Shown: in pieces, positions 31,038 through 52,734 of the stretch | Layout: each line of letters begins with the position of its first letter | Position numbering within the stretch: position 1 is the stretch's first letter | Assembly (NCBI RefSeq): GCF_000807925.1 | Contig: NZ_JRVC01000002.1 | Span: forward strand, 62,001 to 126,000 | Reading direction: 5' to 3' | Source of the DNA: Novosphingobium subterraneum | Lineage (GTDB): Bacteria > Pseudomonadota > Alphaproteobacteria > Sphingomonadales > Sphingomonadaceae | DNA length: 64,000 nucleotides | The notes under the pieces: model-generated | Told to the model about the DNA's origin: nothing | The model's database searches: none | Seen by the model: only the letters and a program-made list of their open reading frames with translations | Position numbers and translations under genes: made by a program

Positions 31038-31796
31038 TTAGCCAGCAACTTGACGATCAGGATCGCCCTTTTTCGCTCGGAAATCAAACCGTATCCGCAC
31101 CCACTCCCCGATCTGAGGCTTTCCATTCACCTTGGGTGGTCGCACCAAAAACTGCCAGCTCGCCTGCCGGATCGCGCGGGCAAGGCCTGATCCCGGCGGG
31201 CTTTCGCCAAGTTCCTGGCAATCCTCGACGTGGTACTTCTCCACCGTCCTGCACGCGATCATCGCCCAGTCCCCCTGCATCCGGCGCTGGGGCAGGTAGG
31301 GGCCGATCTCGGCATCGGTGGGTTCGCGATACCATTGCGCGGCAAAGAGCCGCACGCCGCCCGGACCTTGCCCTACGCTGGCGGAATCGCCCGGACTGCC
31401 CGCGCCCACCCGTTGCGCCCCGCCGGACTCTGCCCGCTTCATGTTGCTGATGTCGGTCGCGCGGTAGTCGTTGCGCGACAGCTCGATGAATCCTTCGGGC
31501 CATTCGACCTTGCCAGGCACTGGCACTTGAGGCGGCGCAGCCACCGGCTGGCTCACAGCGGCTTCGGCGGATTCCGCCTGCTTCTGCCGCTTCTGCTCCT
31601 GCTTTTGCGCCTTCTCTTCGTCCTGCCCCTGAGCGGATAGGTCGATCGCGGTCAGGTGCGTGCCCTTCCCATCGCCGAAGCCGGTAACCGCGCCCATTCG
31701 CCACATGATCAGGAACACCAACAAGGTTGTGACTGCGGCAAACGCCATTGCTCCGGCCCGCTCGCGCGACGATGCCTGATAGCCTTGCTTCGCCAT
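31038..31796 (-). CDS. TonB-like membrane-anchored protein of unknown function
   Basis: About 252 residues from MAKQGYQASSRER; two other in-frame starts lie 21 and 90 bp upstream. One N-terminal TM (AMAFAAVTTLLVFLIMWRMGA) is followed by a charged KQEQKRQKQAESAE stretch, a Pro/Val linker and a C-terminal domain ending WQFLVRPPKVNGKPQIGEWVRIRFDF, resembling the end of a TonB-type domain. No ExbB/ExbD are adjacent. Divergent from moxR, so it may share the operator array between them. Confidence 0.6.
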   Translation of the reverse strand: MAKQGYQASSRERAGAMAFAAVTTLLVFLIMWRMGAVTGFGDGKGTHLTAIDLSAQGQDEEKAQKQEQKRQKQAESAEAAVSQPVAAPPQVPVPGKVEWPEGFIELSRNDYRATDISNMKRAESGGAQRVGAGSPGDSASVGQGPGGVRLFAAQWYREPTDAEIGPYLPQRRMQGDWAMIACRTVEKYHVEDCQELGESPPGSGLARAIRQASWQFLVRPPKVNGKPQIGEWVRIRFDFRAKKGDPDRQVAG

Positions 31797-31902
31797 GACA
31801 TTGCGGGGTGCGACCATTTCCGCGTCGCTACACGGCGGTTTCGGGCACTTCAATCGCCGAGACGGCCAAGCATAAGTTAGCGACAATTTGACACGACATA
31901 CA

Positions 31903-32009
31903 TGACGAATGCGTCACCAACCGAGTTCAAAAATGACGCGTGCGTCATCAACATGCTCCGAAACTGACACGTGCGTCTAACTATGAGTTCGAAGATGACG
32001 CGGCCGTCA
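31903..32009. promoter_or_regulatory. Array of four palindromic operators at exact 31-bp spacing
   Basis: Four 14-bp sites begin at 31903, 31934, 31965 and 31996: TGACGAATGCGTCA, TGACGCGTGCGTCA, TGACACGTGCGTCT and TGACGCGGCCGTCA. The core is TGACG-N4-CGTCA, perfect in three of four. Every step is exactly 31 bp, about three helical turns, so bound dimers would lie on one face of the DNA. Spacers 2-4 also share sequence (AAC...GAGTTC-like), so this is a degenerate 31-bp tandem repeat. It lies between the TonB-like gene and moxR. Confidence 0.75.
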
Positions 32010-32023
32010 GTTCAGCAACCCCC

Positions 32024-32051
32024 TTGCGCCGCACTCTCCGCCGCCTTATCG
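32024..32051 (+). promoter_or_regulatory. Candidate moxR promoter
   Basis: TTGCGC (32024-32029), 16-nt spacer, TTATCG (32046-32051). The start would fall near 32058, inside the TTAA dyad. Confidence 0.35.
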
Positions 32052-32069
32052 CTTAACCGAACGATTAAG
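32052..32069. promoter_or_regulatory. TTAA dyad upstream of moxR, shared with the VWA gene
   Basis: CTTAACCGAACGATTAAG, ending 16 nt before the moxR ATG. Its reverse complement matches the site before the VWA gene (36493-36510) at 16 of 18 positions. Confidence 0.6.
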
Positions 32070-32085
32070 CACACAGGAACCGCCG

Positions 32086-32931
32086 ATGCGCTTTGAAGGC
32101 ACCAGCAATTACGTCGCTACCGAAGATCTCAAGGTCGCCGTCAACGCAGCCGTCCTGCTGCGCCGCCCTCTTCTGGTAAAGGGAGAACCCGGCACCGGCA
32201 AGACCGTGCTCGCTCATGAAATCGCGAAGGCGGTGAACGCGCCGCTTATCGAATGGAACGTGAAATCCACCACCAAGGCTCAGCAAGGCCTTTACGAATA
32301 CGACGCAGTCGCCCGCCTGCGCGACGGCCAGCTCGGCGATGAACGGGTCCACGACATTCGCAACTACATCAAGAAAGGCAAGCTGTGGGAGGCCTTCACC
32401 AGTCCCACCCTTCCCGTTCTGCTGATTGACGAGATCGACAAGGCGGACATCGAGTTTCCGAACGACCTCCTGCAGGAGCTCGATCGCATGAGCTTCGACG
32501 TGTACGAGACGCAGGAGCGCATCGAGGCGCGTGAACGCCCGATCGTCGTGATCACCTCGAACAACGAGAAGGAACTGCCCGACGCCTTCCTGCGCCGCTG
32601 TTTCTTCCACTACATCAAGTTCCCGGACCGCGACACGATGCAGGCAATCATCGACGTCCACTTCCCCGGTATCCAGAAGACCCTGGTGAGCAAGGCGATG
32701 GAGGTGTTCTACGAGATCCGCGAAGTGCCCGGCCTCAAGAAGAAGCCCAGCACTTCCGAACTGCTCGACTGGCTCAAGCTCCTGCTGAACGAGGACATGC
32801 CATTGGACGTCCTCCAGAACCGCGATCCGACCAAGGCGATCCCGCCGCTGCACGGCGCGCTGCTCAAGAACGAGCAGGACATCATGCTGTTCGAGCGCCT
32901 GGCCTTCATGGCCCGGCGTCCGGGGAACTGA
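32086..32931 (+). CDS. MoxR-family AAA+ ATPase
   Basis: 281 residues. Walker A GEPGTGKT (33-40), Walker B LLIDEIDKAD, sensor 1 VITSNNEKELPDAFLRRC and the arginine-finger region FFHYIKFPD. MoxR ATPases act as chaperones with a VWA-domain partner to insert cofactors or mature large complexes. The partner is the VWA gene at 36529, four genes away but with the same upstream dyad. AGGA precedes the ATG. Confidence 0.9.
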   Translation: MRFEGTSNYVATEDLKVAVNAAVLLRRPLLVKGEPGTGKTVLAHEIAKAVNAPLIEWNVKSTTKAQQGLYEYDAVARLRDGQLGDERVHDIRNYIKKGKLWEAFTSPTLPVLLIDEIDKADIEFPNDLLQELDRMSFDVYETQERIEARERPIVVITSNNEKELPDAFLRRCFFHYIKFPDRDTMQAIIDVHFPGIQKTLVSKAMEVFYEIREVPGLKKKPSTSELLDWLKLLLNEDMPLDVLQNRDPTKAIPPLHGALLKNEQDIMLFERLAFMARRPGN

Positions 32932-52222: not shown

Positions 52223-52699
52223 TCAGACCGTTGGATCGCGGCCTTCAGACCGCTCCTTGGCGATGACGAGATCGACAAAGCTGGTCAGCTCGTCGATGGT
52301 CGCAGCAATGTCCGCCTGTTGGCGACGCAGGTTCTCGATCCGCTCACGACACTTGGCAATCGTGACGCGGCGCTGCTCGGCGCGCCCGTCACCCATGTCG
52401 TAAAGATCGATCATGTCGCGAATCTCGGCGAGGCTGAAACCCACGTTCTTGGCGCGCATGATCCAGGCGAGACGCGCGCGGTCCCGCTTGGAATAGATGC
52501 GTGACAGCCCGATCCGTTCGGGCGCGATCAGCCCTTCGTCTTCATAGAAGCGCAGTGCACGGGCCGTCACCCCGAACTCGTTGGAAAGATCGGAAATGGT
52601 GAACTGGTCACGCTTGAGCGCATCGGGCTGATCGAGATGCCCGGTGTGCTCGTTCTGTGCAGACGGATCGCGAGTCGCTGTGGCGGCATGCTGTGACAT
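52223..52699 (-). CDS. MerR-family regulator of the acyl-CoA operon
   Basis: 158 residues. A 30-residue disordered N-terminus precedes the winged helix FTISDLSNEFGVTARALRFYEDEGLIAPERIGLSRIYSKRDRA, then a coiled-coil dimerisation region (CRERIENLRRQQADIAATID). No effector domain or metal Cys. Similar regulators (LiuR type) control branched-chain and fatty-acyl-CoA degradation. The promoter contains a dyad operator and gives a leaderless transcript. Confidence 0.88.
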   Translation of the reverse strand: MSQHAATATRDPSAQNEHTGHLDQPDALKRDQFTISDLSNEFGVTARALRFYEDEGLIAPERIGLSRIYSKRDRARLAWIMRAKNVGFSLAEIRDMIDLYDMGDGRAEQRRVTIAKCRERIENLRRQQADIAATIDELTSFVDLVIAKERSEGRDPTV

Positions 52700-52734
52700 G
52701 TCGCCAAGCTAACTAACCTTTACGTAAGCGTCAA
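52700..52734 (-). promoter_or_regulatory. merR promoter with LiuR-like operator, leaderless start
   Basis: On the minus strand TTGACG (52734-52729), 17-nt spacer, TAGCTT, six bases, then ATG. The dyad TTGACG-CTTA-CGTAAA (52734-52719) covers the -35 side. It overlaps the last codons of hisI. Confidence 0.6.

Follow-up and report, generated by a model that had tools for sequence, protein, structure and literature searches.

Which protein would bind the phased palindromes that separate moxR from a divergently transcribed gene in Novosphingobium subterraneum, and what would it do there? The window (the whole stretch of DNA analysed here, 64,000 nucleotides) had been described, from its letters alone, as carrying four TGACG-N4-CGTCA palindromes at this place. 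Direct reading confirmed them: they start at 31903, 31934, 31965 and 31996, three of the four are perfect, and every step is 31 bp (Table 1). The exact motif occurs three times in the 64-kb window, always within the array, and sites with at most one mismatch number 10 against a shuffle mean of 2.86. When the intergenic region was shuffled 20,000 times with dinucleotide content preserved, one perfect copy appeared in 28 shuffles and two or more in none. The genome search for TGACG-N4-CGTCA proposed in the sequence-only reading was run, and it returned 16 exact sites versus 8 for a reversed control. The motif alone is thus mildly enriched, and what is unusual is its clustering and phasing. That reading had also held that spacers 2–4 share sequence and that the array probably arose by tandem duplication. 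Some sharing is indeed present, but it is weaker than claimed and lies partly between other copies: spacers 1 and 2, and likewise 1 and 3, agree at 9 of 17 bases, 2 and 3 at 5 of 17, and spacer 4 agrees with any other at 2–3 of 17. Duplication is plausible for the fourth copy; the spacers do not show it.

Table 1. Coordinates of the array and of the genes, promoters and sites discussed with it (positions in the window unless a contig is given).
Feature	Position	Strand	Sequence	Remarks
Operator unit 1	31903..31916	.	TGACGAATGCGTCA	perfect; direct reading
Operator unit 2	31934..31947	.	TGACGCGTGCGTCA	perfect
Operator unit 3	31965..31978	.	TGACACGTGCGTCT	degenerate, two mismatches
Operator unit 4	31996..32009	.	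TGACGCGGCCGTCA	perfect; 14 bp before presumed moxR -35
Inferred moxR promoter	32024..32052	+	-35 TTGCGC (32024-32029), -10 TATCGC (32047-32052)	spacer 17; consensus by eye
Inferred divergent-gene promoter	31825..31853	-	-35 TTGAAG (31853-31848), -10 TAGCGA (31830-31825)	by eye
moxR, MoxR-type AAA+ ATPase	32086..32931	+
Divergent membrane protein	31038..31796	-		TonB-like in the sequence-only reading
Second dyad	32053..32068	.	TTAACCGAACGATTAA	at presumed moxR start site
Block between array and divergent gene	31880..31894	.	GCGACAATTTGACAC	by eye
merR gene and its own site	52223-52734			own site almost unchanged among the genus genomes examined
Candidate TetR-family gene	G000:C5:204892-205488			beside purSQ

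We analysed the distribution of the array by searching 195 genomes of the genus for a paired pattern, TGAC-N6-GTCA twice with 17 bp in between, allowing at most one mismatch. The pattern matched 23 genomes, and the loci of all 23 were inspected; arrays were found in 17, every one between moxR and the divergent gene, a count in which degenerate (two-mismatch) arrays may be under-represented. The six other one-mismatch matches (L040, L057, L058, L067, L068 and L074) have neither moxR nor the divergent gene beside them and were set aside. Fifteen of the arrays have three units, and those of the window's genome (G000) and of G124 have four. The 36 steps between units in the 17 arrays are almost uniform (33 of 31 bp, two of 33 bp and one of 30 bp), and the TGAC/GTCA arms are perfect in 47 of 53 units, whose consensus, read off the counts, is TWnc-TGACRC-NN-GYGTCA-gnWA. 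Comparison of the 14 arrays that have two 31-bp steps gave a mean pairwise identity of 0.971 for the arms and 0.343 for the spacers, with the six central bases (0.475) and the outer W-W flanks (0.544) in between. Arms and spacing are thus kept while the spacers are free to change, as would be expected of an operator array and not of a young tandem or dispersed repeat.

Upstream regions were read directly at 30 moxR loci, at the array loci and at 30 divergent-gene loci, 10 of the latter being inspected in sequence. The comparison with relatives gave a divided answer: the array is kept in the clade of the window's genome and absent from some relatives, G011 for example, and it is missing from 26 of the other 29 moxR upstream regions that were read in the genus. 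One further genome, G153, perhaps belongs to the clade by its MerR, and its contig ends at moxR. Outside the genus, a zero-mismatch search of 397 family genomes from 96 genera matched only the window's own genome; since zero mismatches would recover 15 of the 17 genomes known to have the array, imperfect arrays in other genera would be missed.

These data bear on two of the possible explanations. A neutral tandem or dispersed repeat would account for the equal unit length and for the restriction of a fourth unit to G000 and G124; against it stand the difference between arms and spacers (97% versus 34% identity in the 14 arrays) and the confinement of phased pairs to one place. Dispersal of the 31-bp unit through the genome did not occur: phased pairs with at most one mismatch lie only at moxR in G000, and in all 17 array genomes every such pair lies at the moxR/divergent-gene position alone. 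We therefore give a neutral repeat next to no credence. Seventeen genomes, a fixed place, near-fixed spacing and diverged spacers uphold the earlier view that the array between moxR and the divergent gene is operator-like, but not the candidate binder it had named, the MerR protein encoded at 52223-52699. That MerR binds the array is very improbable. It is present in 17 of 17 array genomes, and its operator has the TGACG half-site and the CG-N4-CG geometry in common with the array units, as had been noted; the right half of its site, though, is CGTAA and not CGTCA. MerR matches occur in 159 of the 195 genus genomes at E 1e-20, paralogs included. We read 30 MerR loci, 13 of them from genomes without a detected array, G011 included. 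The MerR protein's own operator (TTGACGCTTACGTAAA-like, TTGACG-N4-CGTAAA), which we take to resemble the LiuR type of MerR site, was exact in 27 of the 30, had one mismatch in two and was not found in one. This site, TTGACG-CTTA-CGTAAA, occurs equally in genomes with and without a detected array, and neither its CGTAAA right half nor its CTTA centre appears in any of the 53 array units.

A different candidate emerged when the 17 array genomes and G011 were scanned with a 22-bp extended motif, allowing one mismatch (for G216, among the matches listed); operator unit 2 of the window with its flanks matches this motif with 0 mismatches. A site that recurs outside the array, of the kind TAACTGACGCATGCGTCATGTA, precedes a TetR-family gene in the vicinity of purQ. 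The encoded protein, examined in its G193 form, has a TetR_N helix-turn-helix domain (PF00440, E 6.2e-17, above the cut-off) and an AefR-like C-terminal domain TetR_C_7 (PF14246, 43.8 bits at a cut-off of 22), and the solved chains matched by the TetR sequence include NalC (8ke8, the best match) and AefR (3cdl). Among the 195 genomes, those with an ortholog of at least 79% identity coincide exactly with the 17 that carry the array, and the next best match has 64%. An ortholog in N. taihuense is 97% identical. The promoter of tetR itself contains TRAC-N6-GTCA in 17 of 17 array genomes, as exact TGAC-N6-GTCA in 13. A -35-like TTTACA hexamer directly precedes this operator in 13 of the 17 (it was not seen in the other four tetR promoters), and the operator extends, by eye, to an AT-rich -10-like stretch.

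The other hit families that recur between genomes number three, and all lie in coding frames: a hemN-like frame (G028, G131, G184 and G117; named by eye), a thiC-like frame (G109, G118 and G000; named by eye) and, at L109 and L115, the loci that were read, an argJ-like frame (G109, G118, G189, G202 and G011; named by eye). These were rejected. Hits in single genomes include one upstream of a metE-like gene in G082 (L140, by eye), G082:C30:162632 (L132) and one between genes in G124 (L116). Two of the tetR loci (L126 and L152) also have an inverted repeat, GGTGGCAGG...CCTGCCACC, on the upstream side of the tetR operator and no more than about 100 bp from it; the repeat encloses a conserved GCACCCCACGCG, and a T-rich stretch comes after it. 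An Rfam search of the window and of L126, L128 and L152 found one tRNA, in the window, and no match at this repeat.

How far can co-occurrence of tetR and the array be read? The 17 array genomes form one clade on the TetR tree, so any clade-specific gene would co-occur with the array. The one departure is G011, which the tree of the divergent protein places within an 18-genome clade (support 100/99), either inside the array group or as its sister. In G011 the array was not found upstream of moxR and no tetR was found; purSQ and an M16 peptidase gene adjoin (by eye), and its TetR matches are short chance pieces. G011 keeps MerR together with the MerR operator. As the only departure, placed inside or sister, it does not prove joint loss of the array and tetR.

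We compared the TetR protein with its wider orthologs, reading 50 of the 51 listed with at least 50% identity (17 from array genomes and 33 others; G121, at a contig edge, was left out). In all 50, tetR is preceded by a predicted operator, a TGAC or AGAC site that is palindromic or nearly so. The ancestral-looking form of this self-operator is TAACTGAC-N2-GTCAGTTA. It counts against TetR as the binder that four genomes with TetR (G033, G079, G090 and G096) carry TGAC-N6-GTCA as its own site without having an array. The residue that follows a conserved Tyr in the recognition helix is Leu where the operator has TGAC (42 of 50 orthologs) and Ala, Ser or Gln where it has AGAC (8 of 50), with no exception; in G003 AGAC is present in one half-site only. 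This covariation of helix and operator amounts to one or two events on the TetR tree. The half-sites are separated by 2 bp in the ancestral-looking operator versus 6 bp in the array units, and the two geometries might be reconciled if the former were read as two overlapping TRAC-N6-GTYA dimer sites.

The neighbourhood of tetR also differs among these genomes. In all 33 non-array orthologs hlyD starts at most 8 bp from the end of tetR, mostly overlapping it; among the 16 testable array genomes hlyD adjoins tetR (at most 8 bp) in three, G065, G082 and G131. G018 was kept out of this test, being 80% complete with a contig that ends 10 bp after tetR. When the other 14 array genomes, G018 included, were searched elsewhere with a 110-residue HlyD N-terminal piece, 10 gave a weak match (31–39% identity) and four gave none. 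A tetR-hlyD-ABC ATPase-permease operon is kept in the array genome G131 (L260 4074-7718). The non-array genome G033, the one read that far, has a full export operon, with ABC ATPase and permease genes after hlyD.

We analysed where the array lies relative to the promoters presumed on its two sides. In 16 of 17 array genomes, 13–16 bp separate the last unit from the TTGC within the presumed -35 of moxR; in G166 the distance is 27 bp, about 13 bp further than elsewhere. The full -35/-10 pattern was matched by script in 13 of the 17, and the distances in the other four were measured separately. The units of all 17 arrays stay clear of the presumed moxR -35 and -10 hexamers. Of 30 moxR upstream regions from the genus, 20 have the second dyad, TTAA-N8-TTAA, at the presumed start site of moxR; if either TTAA or CTAA is allowed, all 17 array genomes have it too. 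This dyad occurs with and without the array, and may be where an older regulator of moxR binds. The block on the divergent-gene side recurs by eye, in varied form (for example GCGACATTTTGTTAC), in array genomes and in G011. As for the genes themselves, a GFA-like gene (named by eye) starts 11 bp after moxR, and the divergent protein has no Pfam match at E 0.001 and no NCBIfam match at E 0.01. In G216 (L081) the divergent gene has one in-frame stop, and the array there is intact.

Taken together, we consider it likely that the array is a set of three or four single-dimer operators for the AefR-like TetR protein, a pump regulator that would have been rewired to moxR and its neighbour. TetR dimers would bind the TGAC-N6-GTCA units, which are spread across 107 bp between the moxR and divergent-gene promoters; 31-bp steps correspond to three helical turns, which would set the dimers on one face of the DNA. 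Bound TetR would control moxR and perhaps the divergent gene too. What the sequences show directly is the sites and their spacing, the conservation of both, the co-occurrence of array and tetR, a matching operator in front of tetR and the loss of hlyD from beside it; binding, cooperation between dimers and control of the moxR region are what we infer from them. As to the direction of control, we lean towards upstream activation of moxR by TetR, because no array unit lies on the moxR -35 or -10, whereas the operator of tetR sits within its own promoter. The 27-bp distance in G166 speaks against contact with polymerase in a strict helical register. In more distant relatives the regulator is the first gene of a tetR-hlyD locus, with a predicted operator in its own promoter; in the array clade it would have gained the array and kept its own operator, while the pump genes were lost in most species. 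With the pump genes lost, moxR and its neighbour would have become the main surviving target of TetR. The fuller history, in which a TetR pump regulator was captured by a new divergent promoter, where three or four dimers act cooperatively on one face as a probable activator of moxR, and then outlived the loss of its pump, is an account that we offer tentatively and hold to be somewhat short of an even chance.

It is possible, if unlikely, that another clade-specific regulator binds the array and that the resemblance to the TetR operator is coincidental or secondary. Co-occurrence at the level of a clade cannot separate linked markers, only the motif and synteny point to TetR, the extended-motif hits in G216 are those among the matches listed, and several single-genome hits remain. 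Against such a regulator stands the recurrence of the 14-bp motif in front of tetR in every one of the 17 array genomes (as TRAC, 13 exact), and the three other recurrent hit families fall in coding frames. Alternatively, an Lrp-like octamer might wrap DNA on the phased sites, given that sites of the Lrp family are described as lying two or three helical turns apart and that Ss-LrpB is reported to wrap about 100 bp around three dimers (in the parts of PMC2995911 that describe it); the one point against it is that the motif pointed to a TetR gene and fits the operator of that gene. We consider Lrp/AsnC-type wrapping highly unlikely here. TetR may also bind the array mainly to be titrated by it, with little effect on moxR. 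Units outside both presumed promoters, and a unit number that varies from three to four, would suit a sponge of this kind, yet titration does not need 31-bp phasing, and 16 of 17 genomes preserve the gap between the array and the presumed moxR -35; we consider a sponge quite improbable.

If our preferred reading, operators for the AefR-like TetR, is right, the moxR array and its regulator would be a natural, sequence-traceable case of the rewiring of a bacterial transcription factor, a process that is the subject of PMC10621929. The traces would be an ancestral-looking operator, operator bases that track one residue of the recognition helix, an array newly acquired at an unlinked promoter, old neighbours lost while the regulator was kept, and one species in which regulator and array are both missing. 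With a named binder and named sites, the function of the uncharacterised moxR locus becomes directly testable. Neither the array nor the regulator was described in the titles and opening abstracts of the best-ranked open-licence literature.

Three known systems offer comparisons. CecR/YbiH, with ybhGFSR, is a TetR-family regulator of an export pump (according to the sections of PMC6790063 on this system). Like it, the TetR gene of the relatives adjoins HlyD/ABC export genes and has an operator-like site in its own promoter; unlike CecR/YbiH, most array species have lost the adjacent pump genes and carry a phased array at the unlinked moxR promoter. EdcR of Caenibius tardaugens recognizes a palindromic TetR operator, TnnCnnTACnAnTnGTAnnGnnA, in its target promoters, with a weaker copy at its own promoter (passages on EdcR in PMC8700777). 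The system described here resembles it in having palindromic sites in the predicted target promoters and in the promoter of a TetR regulator, but the array sequence differs from TnnCnnTACnAnTnGTAnnGnnA, and those EdcR passages mention no phased array. The parallel with Ss-LrpB, as presented in the same parts of PMC2995911, is a functional one only: both have regular sites two or three helical turns apart over a total of about 100 bp. In contrast to Ss-LrpB, the candidate binder of the moxR array belongs to the TetR family, and the sites lie in a bacterial divergent promoter and not in the control region of the regulator itself. If the proposed binding is true, an Lrp-like phased assembly would have been achieved with a TetR protein.
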